The translations under genes and the position numbers were made by a program. A stretch of DNA of 64,000 nt from Thermus antranikianii DSM 12462 (GTDB taxonomy: Bacteria; Deinococcota; Deinococci; Deinococcales; Thermaceae). Positions within the stretch are counted from its first letter, which is position 1. Every line of letters starts with the position of its first letter. This document shows positions 8,752-45,970 of this stretch, in pieces. Location: the NCBI RefSeq assembly GCF_000423905.1, contig NZ_AUIW01000001.1, forward strand, positions 62,001 to 126,000, read 5' to 3'. The notes below the pieces were generated by a model, which saw nothing but the letters and a program-made list of their open reading frames with translations, made no database searches and was not told the origin of the DNA.

Positions 8752-9998
8752 CAGCGCAGGCTGGCGTAAACGGCGTTCCGGAAAAGCCCGGCGTAATAGG
8801 TGCGCCCCCCGGGGTTCTGCATCATGAAAACGCCGATGAGGCGTTCCTTGGGGTCCACGAAGAAGTAGGTGCCAAAAAGCCCCGCCCAGTAATAATCCCC
8901 CTTGGAGCCGGGCAAGGGGCTTCCCCCGTCCTCGAGGCGCACCGCCACCCCCAGGCCGAAGCCGTACCCGAAGCCGGGGAGGTAAGGGGCCCCCCGTTGT
9001 AGGGAGGGAAGGTAGAGGGGACCCAGGTGGTCCTGGGTGAGGAGCTCCACCCCCTTGCGGGAGAGGATGCGCCGTCCCCCAAACTCCCCGCCGTTCAACA
9101 GGGCCTGCAGAAAGCGGTGGTAGTCCTGGGCTGTGGCCACGGCGCCTGCCCCGCCGGAATAGCGCTTGGGCGCCTCCCGCACGTTCAGGGGAAGGGGGGT
9201 AGGGGTTCCCGTGAAGGGATCCCGCTCGGGAGGTTCCGCAACACGGCCCCACTTTTCCGGGGGCACCTGGAAGCCGCTATCCACCATGCCCAAGGGCCGG
9301 AAGATCCTTTCCTCCATGAGTTCGGCGAGGCTCTTGCCCGTGACCCTTTCCAGGAGGTGGCCGAGAAGGTCCGTGGAGTTGCCGTACTCCCAGAGGGTGC
9401 CAGGCTGGAACTGGAGGGGAAGGCGGGCGAGCTTGGCCAAAAACTCCTCCCGGGTCTGGTCCAGGGCGTCGGCGTTTACCTTGCGGTACTCCTGCTTCAC
9501 CAGGGAGTCAAAGAAGATGCCGTAGGTGATGCCCGAGGTGTGGCGCAGGAGGTCGTAGAGGGTGATGGGCCTTTGGGACGGCGCAAGCTCCAGCACCGGC
9601 CTTCCTTCGGGGCCTGCCCGCTCCACCCCCACCCGTATCTCCCGGAACTCGGGGAGGTAGAGGGCAAGGGGGTCCGTGAGGAAAAGCCGCCCCTCCTCCA
9701 CGAGCTGTAGGGCGAGAACCGAGGTCAAGGGCTTCGTCATGGAGTAGATGCGGAAGATGGCCTCCTTGGCCATGGGGGTCCGCGCCTTGGGGTCCAGGTA
9801 GCCCACCGCCTCGTGGAAGACCACCTGGCCGTTCCGTGCCACCAGGACCACCGCGCCGGGGAGCCGGCCCTGGGCTACCTCCGCCTCGAGGCGGGCCTTG
9901 AAGGCCTGGAGCACCCCGAGGTCCACCCCCTCCCGCACCTGGGCCAAGGCCAGGCCCAGGAGGGCCATGCCTAGCGCCAAAAGCCGCCAAAGCCGCAT
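8751..9998 (-). CDS. Secreted serine hydrolase, class C beta-lactamase/esterase family
   Basis: A penicillin-binding-protein-fold hydrolase. The likely start is ATG 9998 (MRLWRLLALG), giving an N-terminal signal peptide ending near ALAQ; a Shine-Dalgarno GAGGGTGG precedes it. Catalytic motifs seen are SMTK (SxxK, nucleophile Ser) and YGN (YxN). Length is 415 residues. In this family non-lactamase members are esterases or peptidases, so an extracytoplasmic esterase supplying acids to the operon is more likely than antibiotic resistance. Its placement inside a beta-oxidation-like operon supports that, but this is inference. Confidence 0.8.
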   Translation of the reverse strand: MRLWRLLALGMALLGLALAQVREGVDLGVLQAFKARLEAEVAQGRLPGAVVLVARNGQVVFHEAVGYLDPKARTPMAKEAIFRIYSMTKPLTSVLALQLVEEGRLFLTDPLALYLPEFREIRVGVERAGPEGRPVLELAPSQRPITLYDLLRHTSGITYGIFFDSLVKQEYRKVNADALDQTREEFLAKLARLPLQFQPGTLWEYGNSTDLLGHLLERVTGKSLAELMEERIFRPLGMVDSGFQVPPEKWGRVAEPPERDPFTGTPTPLPLNVREAPKRYSGGAGAVATAQDYHRFLQALLNGGEFGGRRILSRKGVELLTQDHLGPLYLPSLQRGAPYLPGFGYGFGLGVAVRLEDGGSPLPGSKGDYYWAGLFGTYFFVDPKERLIGVFMMQNPGGRTYYAGLFRNAVYASLR

Positions 9999-37094: not shown

Positions 37095-38633
37095 CTAGCC
37101 TTCCCAGGCCAGGATGGGAGCTATGTGCTGCCTTTCACGATGAAGCTCGCATGTGAACGTTAACTCTACTCCCGGCCACACCTGGCCGAAAAGCCAGAGA
37201 TCTCCAGGATGAACCCTGGCTGGCTTGGCATAGCCCCCAAGGCTCCCCTTATCCACCAAAAGCACCAGGGGGCGCCCAGAAGGCGGCACCTGGATACCTC
37301 CCAAGGGCGTGGCCTCGGAAAGCCCTTCCCCCCCAGGTACCTCCGGCCCCAGGAGCTCCACGCCCATCCGGTCCGCCCGCACCACCTGGAAGGAGGCGGA
37401 AACCAAAGCCCTAAAGGCTTCCCAGGAAAACTGGGGCCCGGGAAGGAGACGGAGGCGAAAGGCTTCCGGCAAGGGCCTTTGCCGGAAGGCGAGTCCCGGC
37501 CGCACGGCCCTTTCCTCCCCCAGACCCAAGACATCCCCCGCCTCTAACGGACGGCCGATCCTGCCCCGGAGGTCCGGGGACACGGAACCCATAAAGGAAC
37601 GGCCCTCGAGGGCTCCCGCCACCGCCAAGTAAACCCTGACCCCCCGGCCCTTGGGCCGAAAGGAGAGGGTTTTGCCCCTAGGCCAGAAAAAGCTCTGGCC
37701 CGGCGGAATCTCTTCCCCCTCCAGGAGGGCGGTAAGCCCATACCCTGCCACCGCCGCCACCAAATCCCTAAGAGCAGTGAGGACCGGACCCCGGTAGGCC
37801 ACCTCCAAAAGGGGTGCGCCCGGGGGATTCCCCACCAGGCGGTTGGCCAGGGAGGCGGAGTAGGGATCCAAGGGCCCGGAACGGGCCAAGCCCAGGTGGC
37901 CCGCCAGAAACCTTCCCTCATCCACCACCAGGTCCAGAAGACCCGGCTCCTCCACCCGCAGGGCAGGAATCCTGGGCTCCTCGGGAAGTAGGGCCAAGGG
38001 GTTGGGCTCCGGGGGAGTGGAACCCTCGGCTTCCCGGAAGCGCACCCGGTCCCCTGGCCTAAGGAGAAAGGGTTCCTCCCGATGGGGATCGTAGACCGCC
38101 ACCAAGGCGGTGCCCAAAAGATGCCACCCTCCAGGGGAAGGCAGAGGGTAGATGCCCGTCTGGGGCCCGGCCATGGCCACCGCATGGGCCGGCACCCTGG
38201 GCCTTGGGTGGGGGCGGCGGGGCAGGCGCAAGGCCGGTTCCACCGGGGCCAAAAAGGGAAACCCGGGGGTAAACCCCAGGGCATAGACCCGGTAAAGGGG
38301 TACCTGGTGCAGGCGTTTCACCTCCTCCAGGGGAAGCCCCGTGCGCCCGGCCACCTCCAAGAGATCTTCCCCATCGTAGCGCACGGGGATCTCCACCATC
38401 CTGCCTTCCTCCCCACCCCCAGCCAAGGTGGTGGCGAGGCGGGAAACAAGCCCAAGGAGCCGTTTCCGGGAAAGCCGCCTGGCATCGTACTCCAGGTACA
38501 GGGTGCCGTAGGCGGGAACCGCCTCCCAAAGCCCTTCAGGGGGAGCCTTTAGAAGAAGGCCGGCCAGGGCCTGGGCCATGCGGTTGGCCTCCTCGGAAAG
38601 CCCCTCGCCAAAGGCCAGGTAGAACCCGTCCAC
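37095..38633 (-). CDS. Fused KipI-KipA protein (5-oxoprolinase PxpB-PxpC type)
   Basis: One 512-residue protein joining a KipI/PxpB domain (about residues 1-205, with ALGFTPGFPFL) to a KipA/PxpC domain (about 220-510, with GHLGLARSGPLDPYSASLAN). In PxpABC these parts form an ATP-dependent 5-oxoproline hydrolase together with PxpA. T. thermophilus has a fused protein of this type whose structure was solved and which is often misannotated as allophanate hydrolase. No PxpA (LamB/YcsF) gene is visible in this window. Start is GTG 38633. Confidence 0.85.
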   Translation of the reverse strand: MDGFYLAFGEGLSEEANRMAQALAGLLLKAPPEGLWEAVPAYGTLYLEYDARRLSRKRLLGLVSRLATTLAGGGEEGRMVEIPVRYDGEDLLEVAGRTGLPLEEVKRLHQVPLYRVYALGFTPGFPFLAPVEPALRLPRRPHPRPRVPAHAVAMAGPQTGIYPLPSPGGWHLLGTALVAVYDPHREEPFLLRPGDRVRFREAEGSTPPEPNPLALLPEEPRIPALRVEEPGLLDLVVDEGRFLAGHLGLARSGPLDPYSASLANRLVGNPPGAPLLEVAYRGPVLTALRDLVAAVAGYGLTALLEGEEIPPGQSFFWPRGKTLSFRPKGRGVRVYLAVAGALEGRSFMGSVSPDLRGRIGRPLEAGDVLGLGEERAVRPGLAFRQRPLPEAFRLRLLPGPQFSWEAFRALVSASFQVVRADRMGVELLGPEVPGGEGLSEATPLGGIQVPPSGRPLVLLVDKGSLGGYAKPARVHPGDLWLFGQVWPGVELTFTCELHRERQHIAPILAWEG

Positions 38634-38772: not shown

Positions 38773-40320
38773 ATGAGGGCACGCTTTTACAGCCAGGGCG
38801 AGGATCACTATAAGCTTGACCCGGACCTAAAAGCGATATTAGACACTTTTGCCCCCGGCCTCCCCCAGGAGGAGCTCTCCGCCTTCGGGAAGCTGGTAGG
38901 GGAAGAGGTTTTAGAGGTGGCCCATCACGTGGACCAGGATGCCCTGCCCCGCCTCCAAATGCACGATCTGGATGGGAACCGTATAGACCGGGCCCTCCTC
39001 TCCCCTGCGCAAAAGACCCTCTTGGAGAAGCTCCGCCCCATGATCCGCCCCGCCTATGAGGGCCGGGGCTGGCCCCTCCACTACGCTTTCGGGTACCTCC
39101 TGGCGGATGGAGGGCTTTACTGCATCCTCACCATCACCCACCAGGTGGCCTACGCCCTCCACAAGTACGCCCCTGAGCACGAAGCGGTGAAGCGGGAACT
39201 CCTCTACGGCCCGGCCTTCGGCGCCACCTGGATGACGGAGATCCAGGGAGGAAGCGACCTGGGGGCCAACCGCACCGTGGCCCGGCGGGAGGGAAACGCC
39301 TACCGCCTTTACCAGGGGGATAAGTACTTCGCCTCAGGGGCGGGCCTGGCCGACTATGCCATCGTCACCGCCAGGCCGGAGGGAGCCCCGGCCGGCCCCA
39401 AGGGCCTTGGCCTCTTCCTCCTGCCACGGGAGGTGGAGGGGAGGCTGAACTTTACCGTGCGCCGGTTTAAGGAAAAGCTGGCCACCCGGGCTGTGCCCTC
39501 GGGGGAAGTGGAACTAGAAGGAAGCCTGGCCTACCCCATCGGCAAGCTGGAGGAAGGCATTTACTACACCCTGGAAAACCTAACGGTGAGCCGGCTGGCC
39601 AATGCGGCCGCCGCCATGGGCATCGCCAAGAAAGCCCACCTCGAGGCCCTCTTCCGGGTAAGGAGGCGGACAGCCTTCGGGAAGATCCTCCTCCAGCACG
39701 ACCTCATTCAGCACGACCTCCTGGAGATGCGCCTAAGGCAGGTGGGAGGCACCGCCCTGGCCTTTCTGGCCATCCAGGCCTTTGACCAAGCCTGGGAAGA
39801 GCGGCCCCCCTACAGCGAGGGCTATCACCTGGCCCGCCTCCTCTCCCACCTGGCCAAGGGGCGCACCGCCGAGCACGCCAGCGCCATCACCGCCCTTGCC
39901 ATGGAGCTTTTCGGGGGCCTGGGCTTCCTGGAGGAGTACGGGGTGGCCCGCTGGCACCGGGAAGCCCTCATCACCCCTATCTGGGAGGGCCCCGCCAACA
40001 TCCAGGCCCTGGACATGCTGGAGGCCATCCTCAAGAAGCGCGCCCACGAGCCCCTCTTGGACATGCTAGGGGAAAGCCCAAGGGCCCAGGCCGAGGCGCA
40101 CAAGATCCTCAAGAAGCTGCAAGAGGAAGGACCCTGGTATGCCAAGGAGGCCCTTAGGGCTTTGGCGGACGCGGTGACGGTCTACGCCTTGGAGAAGGTG
40201 GCCGCCGAACCCTTCCCCGAGCTTGCGGAGCTCTACACCCGCCGCTTCCTTAAAGGGGAAACCCTTCCCCCCTCCGCCCAAAGGCCTGAGCTTTACGACC
40301 CCTGGTCAAGCCTCTCGTAA
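38773..40320 (+). CDS. Acyl-CoA dehydrogenase, long AidB-like type
   Basis: A 515-residue flavoprotein of the acyl-CoA dehydrogenase superfamily, longer than the usual 380. The segment ATWMTEIQGGSDLGANRT, EYGVARWHREALITPIWEGPANIQALD and the long N-terminal extension match the AidB/DUF acyl-CoA dehydrogenase branch, in which the region near IWEGPANIQ carries the base. Some members bind DNA in the alkylation response and others oxidise acyl-CoAs. Context does not decide between them. Its 3' end overlaps the convergent aldehyde oxidoreductase gene by 28 bases. Confidence 0.85.
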   Translation: MRARFYSQGEDHYKLDPDLKAILDTFAPGLPQEELSAFGKLVGEEVLEVAHHVDQDALPRLQMHDLDGNRIDRALLSPAQKTLLEKLRPMIRPAYEGRGWPLHYAFGYLLADGGLYCILTITHQVAYALHKYAPEHEAVKRELLYGPAFGATWMTEIQGGSDLGANRTVARREGNAYRLYQGDKYFASGAGLADYAIVTARPEGAPAGPKGLGLFLLPREVEGRLNFTVRRFKEKLATRAVPSGEVELEGSLAYPIGKLEEGIYYTLENLTVSRLANAAAAMGIAKKAHLEALFRVRRRTAFGKILLQHDLIQHDLLEMRLRQVGGTALAFLAIQAFDQAWEERPPYSEGYHLARLLSHLAKGRTAEHASAITALAMELFGGLGFLEEYGVARWHREALITPIWEGPANIQALDMLEAILKKRAHEPLLDMLGESPRAQAEAHKILKKLQEEGPWYAKEALRALADAVTVYALEKVAAEPFPELAELYTRRFLKGETLPPSAQRPELYDPWSSLS

Positions 40321-42005
40321 AGGGGCGCCAGGTCCTCGGGGCGGAAGCGGGCGGTGTAGCCCTTGGGCGGAAGGGGTTCCTCATAGAAGAAGCCCGGGAG
40401 GCGGTCATCCTGGTGGGTGAAGCCCGCCAGGTGGTTAAAGCGATGTTCCAGGCGCAAAACGCCCTCCCCAAGCTCACGCCAGAAGGCAGGGGTCAGGTTC
40501 GTGCCCAGGGCGGCGTTTAGGCTTTCCACCACGAACTCCACCTGCTTGTTGGTGACGCTTCCCCCGAAGACGCAAAGGCCCAGGGCGTCGTTGGCGGCGG
40601 CGTTCACCTGGGCCTGATAACTGGCCTCGAGGATCTCCTCCACGGGCATGGCCCGGGTTTCCAGGCGCGGGGCATTCCCCGCGGTGTGGTCTGCCCCCTG
40701 GGCGGTGATCATCATGGTGATCCCCGTGGCCTCCACCACCCTGGGATCGTAGGCGCTGATGGCCTGACGCTTGATGACGGGAACCCGCTTAAGCCCAAGC
40801 GCCTCCCCCACCCGGGCGGTGCCTTGGGCCAGGAAGCGGGCCTCCTCACTTGGAGTGTAGAGGGCTTTGAGCCTGGCCTCCATGAAGGCATAGTCCCCCC
40901 AGTCCGCCTCTCCCTTTTCCATGAAAAGGGCCAAGGTGGCCCCGGTTTCTATGGTGTCCACCCCCAGGTCGTTGGCCAGGCGATTGAGGCGGGCGAGCTG
41001 GTCCGGATCGGTGAGGCCACAGTTGGTGCCCATAAGGCCGATGGTCTCGTACTCCAGGGGGGAAACCACCTCCTCTCCCTTTTCGTCCACGATGACGTTG
41101 GAGCACTGGATCACGCATCCAGGCATGCAGGCGTGGGTGTGTTTCCCTCCCCGAGCCTTGTTGAGGGGAGCGATGTACTGGCCGCCCATGCGGAACTCCT
41201 CCGGGGAGGCGAGCTGGCCCTGGCGAAAGTTCCTCACCGGCAGTCCCCCGAAGGCATTCTGGAAGTCCGCCATTCCCATGGTGCCGATGGCGTTGTAGAA
41301 CTTCATCACCAAGGGGTCCTGGCGCAAAAGCTCCGCATAGCGGCGGATGGCCCCGGTGACCTTGGGCTTGTCCCAGACCTCCACCTTCCCCGGCACCTCC
41401 ACCACGATGGCCTTGACCCGCTTGCTTCCCATCACCGCCCCCACGCCTCCCCGGGCCGCCAGGCGGGAAGGCCTGCCGTCGATGTCCGAAAAGGCGATGC
41501 CCGAAAGGAGGCCCAGGTACTCCCCCACCGGCCCCAAAAGGGCAAAGGCGATCTTCCTGCCGTAGGCGGCAAACAGCTTGGCCGCCGCCTCAAAGTTCCC
41601 GAGGCCCAGGAGGTCCTCCGCCGGGTCAAAAAAGACCTGGCCCTCCCGGGTGATGCGGAGGACCACCCAGTCGGGGCTTGCCCCCTCCAGGACCAGGTGG
41701 GAAAGCTTCATCTGGCCCAGGGCGTAACCGAAGGTGCCGCCCCCGTTGGCCTCCTTGATGCCCAGGGTAAGGGGGCTTCGCGTACCCACGCTGGTGCGGT
41801 TGGCGTTGGAAAACCCCGTTCCCGCCAGGGGACCTACGGCGAACACCAGGGGATTCTCTGGGGAAAGGGGATCCATGCGGTAGGCCTCCCGCTCCAGAAG
41901 AAGCCGCCCCGTGCGGTAGCGGCCGCCATGGGCCGCCTCCTCAGGAGAAACCTCCTCCCAATAAACCCGCTTGTTCAAAAGGTCAACCCGCAAAGACCTC
42001 CACAT
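40293..42005 (-). CDS. Aldehyde:ferredoxin oxidoreductase family tungstopterin enzyme
   Basis: Oxidises aldehydes to acids and reduces ferredoxin or another carrier, using a bis-pterin tungsten cofactor and one [4Fe-4S] cluster. The 570-residue protein has the family N-terminal domain (AVGPLAGTGFSNANR; GIKEANGGGTFG) and cluster cysteines in the middle at C293, C297 and C301, plus a distal Cys in DALGLCVFGG. Spacing CxxxCxxxC differs from the usual CxxCxxxC. It is the last gene of a three-gene operon after an aminotransferase and an ABC-class ATPase. The physiological aldehyde is unknown. Confidence 0.88.
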   Translation of the reverse strand: MWRSLRVDLLNKRVYWEEVSPEEAAHGGRYRTGRLLLEREAYRMDPLSPENPLVFAVGPLAGTGFSNANRTSVGTRSPLTLGIKEANGGGTFGYALGQMKLSHLVLEGASPDWVVLRITREGQVFFDPAEDLLGLGNFEAAAKLFAAYGRKIAFALLGPVGEYLGLLSGIAFSDIDGRPSRLAARGGVGAVMGSKRVKAIVVEVPGKVEVWDKPKVTGAIRRYAELLRQDPLVMKFYNAIGTMGMADFQNAFGGLPVRNFRQGQLASPEEFRMGGQYIAPLNKARGGKHTHACMPGCVIQCSNVIVDEKGEEVVSPLEYETIGLMGTNCGLTDPDQLARLNRLANDLGVDTIETGATLALFMEKGEADWGDYAFMEARLKALYTPSEEARFLAQGTARVGEALGLKRVPVIKRQAISAYDPRVVEATGITMMITAQGADHTAGNAPRLETRAMPVEEILEASYQAQVNAAANDALGLCVFGGSVTNKQVEFVVESLNAALGTNLTPAFWRELGEGVLRLEHRFNHLAGFTHQDDRLPGFFYEEPLPPKGYTARFRPEDLAPLYERLDQGS

Positions 42006-42015
42006 GGTTTCCAGC

Positions 42016-43686
42016 TTACTCCGCCGCCCGCCGCACCTCCAGGGAGCGAAGCCGGTTCACCGCTGCCCCCAGCTCCAAAGAGCGCACTTCGGCTACCTCA
42101 GGGGCCTCTTCCAGGGAAAAAAGGTCCTCTACCCTTCCCAGTACCTCCTCCACCAGCTCCCGCAAAGGAGTTTTGCCGTCCGCCTGCCGCCAAAGCCGCT
42201 GGAGCCATGCCCCCAAAGCCCGCACCTGGGCGTTTTCAAAAAGGTCCAAGGCGGATAGGTCCACCACCTCCTCCCCGTAGACCAGCTCCCTGAGGCCCCG
42301 ACCCTTCACCCGGGCCTTCCTGCCCCGCCTGGGATCAAAGCTTTCGGGCAAGGGAGCCCGGGAAGCCACGGCAAGGGGATACCGAGGCTCGCCAAAAGCC
42401 CGCCCCGTGGGATGGGCTTGGGCGATGGCCTTGGCCTCCAGGGTGGCCTCCCTCGGCCGGTACTCCTCCAGAAGCAAGACCGTGTCTGCCAGGTCCAGGT
42501 AGTCCCCCACCCCGCCCACCACCAGGATCAGGCTCACCCCCCTGGCCTTAAAGTCCTGAACCCGGTCCAAAAGGGGGGTGAGGGTTTCCCGCCGCACCAG
42601 GGCCTGCATACGGGCATCCCGCACCAGGAGGTTGGTGGCAGAGGTATCCTCGTCCAAGAGAAGCACCCGGGCACCCAGCTCCAGGGCCTCCAGGATGGCG
42701 GCCGCCAGGCTGGTGGACCCCGAGGCATCCTCCGTGGAGAAGAAAGAGGTGTCCTGGCCCAGGGGAAGGTCGTGCACGAAGGGCCTTAGATCCACGCCCT
42801 TCACGCTTCGGCCATCCTCCGACTGGACCCTCTGGGCCAGGGCATGGGTCACCACCCACTCCCGCCCATCCCCGGGAATATGGGGATAGACCCCGTGAAC
42901 CAAGGCCTCGAGGAGGGTGGTTTTCCCATGGAAGCCTCCGCCGGTGATAAGGGTGAGGCCCTGGGGGAGGCCCATCCCAAAGACCTCACCCTTGTGGGGT
43001 ACGCGGAAGGAAACCCGCAAGGAAGGGGGGCTTTGGAAGGGAACCGCCCCCCTTAAGGGCTTCTGGCTTACCCCGCTTTCCCGGGGAAGGATGGCCCCAT
43101 CCCCCACGAAGGCCACCAGGCCCCTTTGGGGAAGGCTCTCCTGAATATAGGCAAAGTCCTCCACCTGCTGGACCTGGGATACCAGGGCCCTCCCATCCAG
43201 TTCCCACAGAAACCCCCGAAGGTGCTCCACCAGGGCCCGGAAAAGCCTCTCCGCCTCCTTACCCAAAATCCTTCGGCCCGAGGCGGGAAGCCCCACCCGG
43301 AAACGCAGGTAAAGCGCCTCTTGGCCAAGATGGGCTCCAGCCCGCCGCAACACCTTGGGGCTTTCCACCTCTACAAAGACCCTCCCCGAGTGCCCGCTCC
43401 CCCCGCAAAAGGGCAGGTGGCGGAACCGGGCCTTGAGGGACCTGAGGAGGAAGTCCTCCACCGCTACCCGGCCCATGGGGTGGCGGTAGATCCGAAGTCC
43501 CTCCACGGCCTTGGCAGGGTAGCGCACCTCCACAACGCTTGGGGTGGCGAAGGGATCCCCCTGCACGTGGACAAAGCGCAGGTCAAACCCCTCACCCCTC
43601 CAGGTTCCCTTTAGATCCTTGTAAAAAGGGTAAGGCCTCCCCTCGAGGGAGGCCAGGAAAGGAAAAAGCTCCTCTAGCCGCCGCAC
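42016..43686 (-). CDS. ABC-class ATPase (PF09818-type)
   Basis: A 556-residue soluble ABC-fold ATPase of the family annotated as predicted ABC-class ATPase. The N-terminal domain (about residues 1-235) contains FCGGSGHSGRVFVE. The nucleotide-binding part has Walker A GGGFHGKTTLLEAL and Walker B VLLLDEDTSATNLL. There are no membrane helices. A trypanosome homologue takes part in RNA editing, but the bacterial role is not known to me. It is sandwiched with gaps of 9-10 bases between an aminotransferase and the aldehyde oxidoreductase, so it probably serves that pathway or its cofactor. Confidence 0.82.
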   Translation of the reverse strand: MRRLEELFPFLASLEGRPYPFYKDLKGTWRGEGFDLRFVHVQGDPFATPSVVEVRYPAKAVEGLRIYRHPMGRVAVEDFLLRSLKARFRHLPFCGGSGHSGRVFVEVESPKVLRRAGAHLGQEALYLRFRVGLPASGRRILGKEAERLFRALVEHLRGFLWELDGRALVSQVQQVEDFAYIQESLPQRGLVAFVGDGAILPRESGVSQKPLRGAVPFQSPPSLRVSFRVPHKGEVFGMGLPQGLTLITGGGFHGKTTLLEALVHGVYPHIPGDGREWVVTHALAQRVQSEDGRSVKGVDLRPFVHDLPLGQDTSFFSTEDASGSTSLAAAILEALELGARVLLLDEDTSATNLLVRDARMQALVRRETLTPLLDRVQDFKARGVSLILVVGGVGDYLDLADTVLLLEEYRPREATLEAKAIAQAHPTGRAFGEPRYPLAVASRAPLPESFDPRRGRKARVKGRGLRELVYGEEVVDLSALDLFENAQVRALGAWLQRLWRQADGKTPLRELVEEVLGRVEDLFSLEEAPEVAEVRSLELGAAVNRLRSLEVRRAAE

Positions 43687-43695
43687 CCTTCCAGG

Positions 43696-45021
43696 TTAGC
43701 CCAAAGCCCCAACCTCCACCTGCTTGAGGGCGCGGGAAAGGCGCTCCACACCTTCCAAGAACTCCTCCTCCTTTATGGTGAGGGGTGGAGCCACCACCAG
43801 GATGTTGTGCTTGACCAGGAGGTAAACCCCCTCCTGCCACAAAGCCGTTTGTAGGGCCTGCATGGCAGGGCTAAAGGGAGCATGCCAGGGAGAAAGGGGT
43901 TCCTTGGTGCCCCGGTCCCGGACCAGCTCTACGGCGTAAAAGGCCCCAAGCCCCCGGACATCCCCCACCACGGGATGCCGGTCCTTTAGGGCCTTAAGGC
44001 TTTCCTGGAAGAAACCCTCCATGGCCAAAACCCGCTCGAAGATGCCTTCCTCTCGGTAGACCTGGAGGGAAGCCAGCCCCGCCGCCACCGCCAAGGGATG
44101 ACCAGAGTAGGTGTGTCCCGTAGGCAAGGGATTTTCGTCAAAGTAACGGGCCAGGGTTTCCCGCACGAGCACCCCTCCTAAGGGCACGTAGGCGGAGGTG
44201 ACCCCCTTAGCAAAGGTGATGAGGTCGGGAACCACGCCAAACCGCAGGGCGGCAAAGGCTGCTCCCAGACGCCCGAAGCCGGTCATCACCTCGTCAAAGA
44301 CCAAAAGGATGCCATGTCGATCGCAAAGGGCCCGCACCCCCTCGAGGTACCCTTCCGGGTAGACGATGACGCCATTGGAGCCCACCACGGGCTCCAGGAA
44401 GATGGCCGCCACCCGCTTGGGATCCTCGTGGAGGAGAACCCTCTCCAGGTGGTCCAGGGCCCGGGTGGTTTCCTCCCTGGGGTCTTCCGTGTAAAAGGGG
44501 CTCCGGTAGGGATAGGGAGCGAAGAAGTGGACTACCCCGGGGGCAGTGCCCGGTTCGGAAGGCCAGCGGCGGTTTTCCCCGGTAAGGCTGGCGGAGGCGT
44601 GGGTGGCCCCGTGGAAGGACCGGTAGGCGGCAAGGACCTTGAAGCGGCCGGTGAGGTGGCGCACGAACTTCAGGGCGTCCTCGTTGGCCTCGGTACCCGA
44701 GGGGGTGAAAAAGACCCTGGCTCCTTCGGGCCAGGGAGAAAGGTCGGACAAGGCCTTGGCGAGAAGGGCCCGCTTATCGTGGAAAAGACTAGGGGCCGCA
44801 TAGGCCAAGGTGGCCGCCTGCTCGGCAATGGCCCGCACCAGCCTAGGGTGGCCATGGCCCAGGTTCAAGGCCACCAGGCCGCTGGAAAGGTCCAGGTAGC
44901 GCCGCCCCTCCTCGTCGTACAGCCAGACTCCCTCCCCCCGCACCACCAAGGGGGGGTTAAGGGAAGCCTGGGCCACCCAGGGGGTAAGGACGTGCTTCTT
45001 GTGGAGGGCTTTTAGGTTCAT
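43696..45021 (-). CDS. Class III pyridoxal-phosphate aminotransferase
   Basis: Transfers the amino group of an omega-amino compound (for example beta-alanine, GABA, putrescine or taurine) to a keto acid, producing an aldehyde. The 441-residue protein has GTEANEDALKF (phosphate binding), the cofactor Asp in LVFDEVMTGFGR and the Schiff-base Lys in TFAKGVTSAYVPLGG. Start ATG 45021 follows GGGGGAG. First gene of an operon whose last gene oxidises aldehydes, suggesting a two-step amine-to-acid route. The exact substrate cannot be read. Confidence 0.87.
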   Translation of the reverse strand: MNLKALHKKHVLTPWVAQASLNPPLVVRGEGVWLYDEEGRRYLDLSSGLVALNLGHGHPRLVRAIAEQAATLAYAAPSLFHDKRALLAKALSDLSPWPEGARVFFTPSGTEANEDALKFVRHLTGRFKVLAAYRSFHGATHASASLTGENRRWPSEPGTAPGVVHFFAPYPYRSPFYTEDPREETTRALDHLERVLLHEDPKRVAAIFLEPVVGSNGVIVYPEGYLEGVRALCDRHGILLVFDEVMTGFGRLGAAFAALRFGVVPDLITFAKGVTSAYVPLGGVLVRETLARYFDENPLPTGHTYSGHPLAVAAGLASLQVYREEGIFERVLAMEGFFQESLKALKDRHPVVGDVRGLGAFYAVELVRDRGTKEPLSPWHAPFSPAMQALQTALWQEGVYLLVKHNILVVAPPLTIKEEEFLEGVERLSRALKQVEVGALG

Positions 45022-45074
45022 CTCCCCCTGAGTATACCCGCCCCTCCATAAGCTCTTGCACGGCCCAAGGGGGC

Positions 45075-45105
45075 TTGCGGCTATAACGATAATGGTTTAT
45101 CATTA
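45075..45105 (+). promoter_or_regulatory. Leaderless promoter and palindromic operator of the metal-binding protein gene
   Basis: TTGCGG (45075-45080), a 17-base spacer, and TATCAT (45098-45103), which ends six bases before ATG 45110. GATAATGGTTTATCATTA (45088-45105) holds two interlocked inverted repeats: GATAA/TTATC and TAATG/CATTA. It overlaps the -10 box. In front of a zinc/manganese uptake gene this is a candidate site for a Fur-family (Zur/Mur) or MntR-type repressor. Confidence 0.6.
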
Positions 45106-45109
45106 CCTT

Positions 45110-45970
45110 ATGCCACGGCTAGCCCTGTTGCTCCTTCTCCTTTCCCAAGCCTGGGCCCAGGTGCAGGTGGCGGCCACCACCCCCCTCCTGGCCGACCTGG
45201 TGTCCCAGGTGGGGGGGAACCGGGTCAAGGTAGAAAGCGTGGTCCCCCCAGGGGCCGACCCCCACACCTTTGAACCCACCCCCAGCACCGCCAAAAACCT
45301 GGCCCGAAGCCGCCTTCTCTTCGCCAACGGCCTCGGCCTCGAGGCCTTCTTGCCCAAGCTGCAACGCCTCCTCCCCCAAGGCGCCCGGGTGGTGAAGCTG
45401 GCGGAAGGGCAACCCAGCCTCATCTGCCAGGAGGAACACCAAGAGGAAAGCCTGGAGGAACGGGAGCACGCCCACGGCCCCTGCAACCCCCACCTCTGGC
45501 TGGACCCCACCTACGCCCTGCGCTATGCCGAGCGCATCGCCCAGGAACTCGCCCAGCTGGACCCCAAAGGAAAGGCCATCTACCAGGCCAACCTAAAGCG
45601 CTTTAGGGCGGAGGTGGAAAAGCGCGATAAGGCCTTCCAAGCCTGCAACCTAAAGGGCCTCAAGGTGGTCACCCAGCACGATGCCTTCGCCTATTTTGCC
45701 CGCCGGTACGGCCTCCAGGTGGTGGGTAGCCTCACCGCCTCGGGGGTGCAGGAGGCGGGAAGCCGGACCTTCCTCACGCTCCTGGAGCGAGCGCGCCGGG
45801 AGGGGGTAAAGCTGGTCCTGGCCGAACCCCAGTTCCAGGGAACCGCCCTCAAGGCCCTGGCTGAGGCCCTGGGAGCCCGCATCGTCGTCCTCTATACCGA
45901 CACCCTGGACCGAAAGGTGCCCACCTATCTGGATTTACTGGACCATAACCTTAAGGCTCTATGCCCATAA
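45110..45970 (+). CDS. Zinc/manganese ABC transporter substrate-binding protein (ZnuA-like)
   Basis: Cluster A-I periplasmic metal receptor, 286 residues with a Sec signal peptide (MPRLALLLLLLSQAWAQ). Metal ligands are recognisable as His in ADPHTFEP, NPHLWLDP and VTQHDAF, and Asp in LYTDTLD. An acidic, His-containing loop (EEHQEESLEEREHAHG) before the second ligand is typical of zinc-binding members and may collect zinc. Start ATG 45110 follows the -10 box by six bases. No permease or ATPase gene is adjacent; galK follows seven bases later. Confidence 0.87.
   Translation: MPRLALLLLLLSQAWAQVQVAATTPLLADLVSQVGGNRVKVESVVPPGADPHTFEPTPSTAKNLARSRLLFANGLGLEAFLPKLQRLLPQGARVVKLAEGQPSLICQEEHQEESLEEREHAHGPCNPHLWLDPTYALRYAERIAQELAQLDPKGKAIYQANLKRFRAEVEKRDKAFQACNLKGLKVVTQHDAFAYFARRYGLQVVGSLTASGVQEAGSRTFLTLLERARREGVKLVLAEPQFQGTALKALAEALGARIVVLYTDTLDRKVPTYLDLLDHNLKALCP

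Follow-up and report, generated by a model that had tools for sequence, protein, structure and literature searches.

An aminotransferase-ATPase-aldehyde oxidoreductase gene row in Thermus antranikianii, probably left behind by loss of an intervening catabolic module

The window analyzed here, a stretch of 64,000 nucleotides from Thermus antranikianii DSM 12462 (contig NZ_AUIW01000001.1, positions 62,001 to 126,000), contains three closely packed minus-strand genes, termed AMT, ATP and AOR3 (Table 1), that encode proteins of 441, 556 and 570 amino acids, respectively. In agreement with an earlier note on this DNA, the reading frames were confirmed, with gaps of 9 bases between AMT and ATP and 10 bases between ATP and AOR3, and the identities proposed there (aminotransferase, PF09818 ATPase and aldehyde oxidoreductase, AOR) are upheld by Pfam domains. 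At its 3' end, AOR3 overlaps the convergent acyl-CoA dehydrogenase gene by 28 bases. Beyond the latter, window 37095-38633 encodes one protein fusing CT_C_D and CT_A_B, i.e., 5-oxoprolinase subunits B and C type.

Table 1. Features of the AMT-ATP-AOR3 locus and its borders (window coordinates).
Feature	Position	Strand	Basis
Convergent acyl-CoA dehydrogenase; far locus border in nearly all arrangements	38773..40320	+	Pfam
AOR3 (570 aa; AFOR_N + AFOR_C), the genome's third AOR paralog	40293..42005	-	Pfam
10-base ATP/AOR3 junction; site of ~10 kb in G001, G005, G012, G018, G019	42006..42015	-	
ATP, soluble ABC-class ATPase (ABC_N, PF09818, MRB1590_C)	42016..43686	-	Pfam; 5d6a match
AMT, class III aminotransferase, PRK06062 subfamily; nearest solved relative 6jix	43696..45021	-	Pfam, NCBIfam, structure match
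TATACT -10-like box, 9 bases ahead of AMT start codon	45031..45036	-	By inspection
Divergent ZnuA/MntC-type metal-binding protein, flanking marker	45056..45970	+	Pfam
Palindromic TGATAA-N3-TTATC-like element	45087..45105	.	Thermus genome comparison

All three genes are intact and under purifying selection, with dN/dS values of 0.08-0.17 against the nearest Thermus genomes (for the single genes, against the nearest relatives without the gene island described below: AOR3 0.08-0.13, ATP 0.12-0.17, AMT 0.10-0.12; for AOR3 between island-less relatives, 0.08-0.14), and are therefore still in use. A -10-like box (TATAAT or TATACT) is found in every compared relative having AMT at this place, and its position implies an AMT transcript that would be nearly leaderless. 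The palindrome, located directly ahead of position 45110, where the divergent Mn/Zn-binding protein gene probably starts, is recognizable in every Thermus genome compared, even in those without AMT, and is assigned to the metal-binding protein gene rather than to AMT. It resembles a Fur-family operator and may be regarded as a candidate Fur-family box.

AMT contains an Aminotran_3 domain (PF00202, 7e-93 in Pfam) and belongs to subfamily NF004718/PRK06062 of NCBIfam (571 bits vs. a cut-off of 472). Its best solved relative along the full length is taurine:2-oxoglutarate aminotransferase (6jix; 357 bits, next best match 276), with which the PLP lysine (TFAKG) aligns, whereas the NCBIfam subfamily is unnamed and has no function assigned. 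ATP combines the Pfam domains ABC_N, PF09818 (5e-116) and MRB1590_C and is thus a member of the PF09818 ATPases, sharing all three domains, the Walker motifs and an LPRxSG loop with 5d6a ("Predicted ATPase of the ABC class"; 362 bits) and with MRB1590 from Trypanosoma brucei. Walker A (GGGFHGKTT), Walker B (LLLDED) and signature (DASGSTS) motifs are intact. The loop reads LPRESG in the Thermus proteins (25/25) but LPRRSG in many others; its Glu also occurs in 24 of 76 PF09818 proteins of other phyla, and the loop pair in the Thermus ATPase may correspond to the pore arginines 199-200 of MRB1590. The latter is the sole studied PF09818 relative and the only one for which RNA binding is known (PMC4538832), while a search for literature on PF09818 or COG3044 in bacteria returned nothing relevant.

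In AOR3, the Pfam domains AFOR_N (3e-52) and AFOR_C (4e-60) span the whole protein, as is typical of W/Mo aldehyde:ferredoxin oxidoreductases (PF02730 and PF01314) such as Pyrococcus furiosus AOR (1aor) and BmWOR from Brevibacillus massiliensis. AOR3 aligns with 1aor over its full length and retains the active-site residues Glu (LEYE) and His (GADH) as well as the fourth cluster cysteine (GLC). Four [4Fe-4S] cysteines, Glu and His are thus all present, but the first three cysteines differ in spacing: the motif HACMPGCVIQC (window 41103-41129; group form HACMPGCVIxC) gives C-x3-C-x3-C, a spacing found in 25 of 26 AOR3-group sequences, and not the C-x2-C-x3-C seen in the two further AORs of this genome, located on other contigs, and in the other AORs of the genus. 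The enzyme is of the single-subunit type, and no AorA/AorC-like gene lies beside it. An aerobe with a working AOR of the W/Mo family is already known (PMC9424855), and three AOR paralogs were reported for T. thermophilus in 2005 (PMC1274311). A moaA match in the genome of the window (G000:C7:99246-99995) scores below the cut-off and ends at the contig end.

To place the locus in the genus, 27 Thermus genomes (G000 being that of the window) were searched for PF09818, PF01314 and AMT, and the loci were then read. Wherever the flanks are readable, the borders are near-constant, the locus being flanked by GalK and an MntC/ZnuA-type protein at one end and by the convergent acyl-CoA dehydrogenase at the opposite end. 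AMT and ATP are adjacent in 22 of the 27 genomes and constitute an old Thermus gene pair. AMT was not detected in G026 and G016, both of which contain ATP, and lies on another contig in G009; in G025 alone (L157 9207-11505), about 2.3 kb of other DNA separate AMT and ATP. Two assemblies feature damaged genes, possibly through assembly errors: AOR3 is split and AMT carries a stop in G009 (L177, L178), while G016 (L183, contig C2) has an AOR3 fragment with a stop and an ATPase in two pieces.

What follows ATP differs between genomes. In ten of them, AOR3 stands directly behind it at a distance of no more than about 190 bases (G000, G002, G003, G007, G008, G014, G017, G022, G023 and G025), a remnant reading frame lies in between in G004, and about 10 kb separate the two genes in G001, G005, G012, G018 and G019. 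Immediate succession by the acyl-CoA dehydrogenase is seen in six genomes (G006, G010, G011, G013, G021, G024). No AOR was found anywhere in G013, which has ATP, while AOR3 occurs alone elsewhere in the other five and in G026, and its persistence there means that the 10-kb island is not strictly needed. AOR3 of G026 (L164) and G005 (L152) are nearly identical and the corresponding ATPases are not close, so that AOR3 has probably been passed laterally between members of the genus.

The island comprises nine genes in identical order and with identical borders in all five genomes, encoding a PucR regulator (PF07905 and HTH_30 in Pfam), a GABA transaminase (GabT), PotA-, PotB-, PotC- and PotD-like proteins, a second GabT (GabT2), a GNAT acetyltransferase and an Amidohydro_3 protein, with the end of the amidohydrolase gene overlapped by the start of AOR3. 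The first GABA transaminase scores above the TIGR00700 cut-off and the second is GABA-transaminase-like. NCBIfam scores of the PotABCD-like transporter fall below the equivalog cut-offs, and judging from these its cargo could be other than polyamines or GABA. A PucR regulator beside a GABA transaminase is reminiscent of GABA-utilization clusters like that of Corynebacterium glutamicum, where the PucR-type GabR regulates GABA utilization (PMC7652997). In contrast to such clusters, island and AOR3 together feature an ABC transporter, a second GabT, a GNAT protein and an amidohydrolase, and the island genes include no aldehyde dehydrogenase (no GabD), leaving AOR3 as the sole aldehyde-oxidizing enzyme there. 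We found no literature linking AOR with GabT/PucR and none describing such an AOR-aminotransferase neighborhood. The window itself contains neither PucR nor GabT, which are present in the island of G001, G005, G012, G015, G018 and G019. For the genome of the window, no match to the island PucR, GabT or amidohydrolase occurs among the matches listed; its island matches are confined to transporter genes (67-72% identity), a pattern common to every genome of the genus.

Adjacency of ATP and AOR3 could have arisen by loss of the island, or the island could be a late insertion that split an ancestral ATPase-AOR3 pair. The state with AOR3 close to the ATPase is indeed the commoner one (10 or 11 vs. 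5 island genomes), and Thermus readily exchanges DNA. These points are outweighed by remnants of a pre-existing island. The 243-aa reading frame between ATP and AOR3 in G004 is a PucR-amidohydrolase fusion, its N-terminal part deriving from PucR and its C-terminal part from the amidohydrolase tail, and the DNA of this interval matches only bases 47-137, 234-447 and 9750-9957 of the island. The same fusion had bridged PucR and amidohydrolase into one protein group during clustering ("c7"), a grouping rejected on the basis of Pfam, which identifies different proteins. Amidohydrolase tails also precede AOR3 in G007 (54 codons) and G014 (about 17 codons), and a few codons are left in G003, G008 and G022. 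Furthermore, the cluster and AOR3 occur together apart from the ATPase: G071, from another genus of the family, has the order PotABCD-GabT2-GNAT-amidohydrolase-AOR3 with ATP on a different contig, and in G015 island and AOR3 share one contig while AMT-ATP lies on another. A fragment from G020 reads amidohydrolase-AOR3-acyl-CoA dehydrogenase. From the arrangements in G071 and G015 and from the remnants, it follows that AOR3 goes with the island and AMT with ATP. A late insertion is largely contradicted by the remnants, which it would have to treat as independent acquisitions, and we regard it as extremely improbable.

Judged from these sequences, the direction is settled as deletion for G004, G007 and G014, and a deletion of about 10 kb would have produced the ATP-AOR3 adjacency in general. 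In two sister pairs, an island-bearing genome is joined with an island-less one (G001 with G002 and G018 with G004), with strong support in both the ATP and the AOR3 tree. The island may have been deleted more than once, or recombination may have restored it in some genomes, so that the number of deletions is uncertain; the trees are also compatible with recovery of the island by recombination in G001 following one old deletion.

This history bears directly on the proposal of the earlier note that the ATPase acts in cofactor insertion or reactivation of the oxidoreductase. A dedicated operon, with AMT as the source of the aldehyde and the PF09818 ATPase as a maturation or reactivation factor for AOR, would fit the close packing on a shared strand, the three intact genes under purifying selection and the recurrence of the ATPase-AOR order in nine further Thermus genomes. 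The adjacency, however, arose by deletion and exists only where the 10-kb island was lost, and each gene is found without the other within the phylum and beyond. Of 111 Deinococcota genomes surveyed, 41 contain AOR3 relatives and 36 contain PF09818. Outside Thermus the two are never neighbors, residing on different contigs in G071, G036, G038, G039 and G042 and 1.6 Mb apart in G037. AOR3 without PF09818 was observed in G043, G045-G048, G095 and G099, several of these genomes being incomplete, and PF09818 without AOR3 in G013, G035 and G044. The neighborhood survey suggested in the earlier note detected no AOR, by tblastn and profile search, in the flanks (6 kb at most, less in some cases) of 79 PF09818 loci from other phyla; 15 of 23 PF09818-bearing genomes of these phyla are devoid of any AOR. 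Conversely, the control genomes of E. coli, Haloferax and Methanosarcina contain the AOR family and lack PF09818. No recurrent neighbors of PF09818 emerged across the 79 loci: the two large clusters of reading frames were interpreted as antisense shadows of the ATPase gene, and each remaining cluster covers at most 8 of 79 loci. In addition, such a factor would also have to serve the other two AORs of this genome, which lie on other contigs. In view of gene order and co-occurrence in the genomes searched, the idea that the ATPase matures or reactivates AOR was rejected; the ATPase, a neighbor of AOR only through island loss, probably does not assist the oxidoreductase, and a dedicated operon is very improbable. 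The AMT-ATPase-AOR genes show neither an order conserved across genera nor the co-occurrence of a conserved operon. Absence of this order from every other genome was one of two findings that, according to the earlier note, would together refute its unit; the order does recur within Thermus, as a secondary state, and was detected in none of the genomes searched outside the genus.

The observed gene content, gene orders, remnants, co-occurrence and selection are best explained as follows, while substrates, electron acceptor, metal, co-transcription and aldehyde flow are predicted. AMT and the ATPase are an old pair, bordered by the genes for the divergent metal-binding protein and the convergent acyl-CoA dehydrogenase. 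A catabolic module running from PucR to the amidohydrolase and AOR3 would once have sat between the ATPase and the acyl-CoA dehydrogenase, until the lineage of the window lost the first nine genes of this module, placing AOR3 ten bases behind the ATPase, where it is presumably transcribed from the AMT promoter. Most likely, AOR3 oxidizes aldehydes from omega-transamination (succinate semialdehyde or amino-aldehydes) to acids, with electrons passing to ferredoxin. Within the complete module, AOR3 would act after the two GabT enzymes and replace the missing semialdehyde dehydrogenase. Since selection on AOR3 has persisted beyond the loss of the module, the enzyme would accept aldehydes from other sources, the AMT product perhaps included, with the ATPase acting separately. 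We assign a probability of about 75% to this explanation as a whole, i.e., that island loss stranded AOR3 behind an AMT-ATPase pair and that the three proteins do not form a specialized unit.

The earlier suggestion that an aminotransferase furnishes the aldehyde for AOR is plausible in general, the original neighbors being two GabT-type enzymes and an amine-type transporter, but the supplier it named, AMT, is another enzyme, paired with the ATPase even where AOR is distant or missing. Following the deletion, AMT and AOR3 might nevertheless have evolved into a two-step pathway, AMT forming an omega-aldehyde (for example, sulfoacetaldehyde or malonate semialdehyde) and AOR3 oxidizing it; the ATPase located between the two would then be a passenger without relation to this pathway. 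Probable co-transcription, selection on AOR3 in the absence of GabT1 and the relationship of AMT to taurine:2-oxoglutarate aminotransferase speak for such a pathway. On the other hand, AMT lies beside the ATPase with no AOR3 there in G006, G010, G011, G021 and G024, G013 keeps AMT-ATPase without any AOR, G026 keeps AOR3 while AMT was not found there, and retention at the locus may be passive. We consider this two-step pathway rather unlikely; the original partners of AOR3 are most likely the GabT enzymes, and AMT is at most a present-day partner.

The locus is an ordinary neighborhood with an instructive history: a tidy-looking operon can mislead, as the ATPase and the oxidoreductase became neighbors through loss of intervening genes. 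The useful lead moves to the original setting of the AOR, a PucR/GabT/Pot-type module without an aldehyde dehydrogenase. It is conceivable, if on balance doubtful, that AOR3 represents a W/Mo group with C-x3-C-x3-C spacing that takes the place of succinate-semialdehyde or amino-aldehyde dehydrogenase in the breakdown of GABA/polyamine-type compounds by aerobic thermophiles, yields reduced ferredoxin rather than NAD(P)H and was kept after the other genes of the pathway were lost. The original module suggests a testable substrate class for an uncharacterized AOR of aerobic thermophiles.
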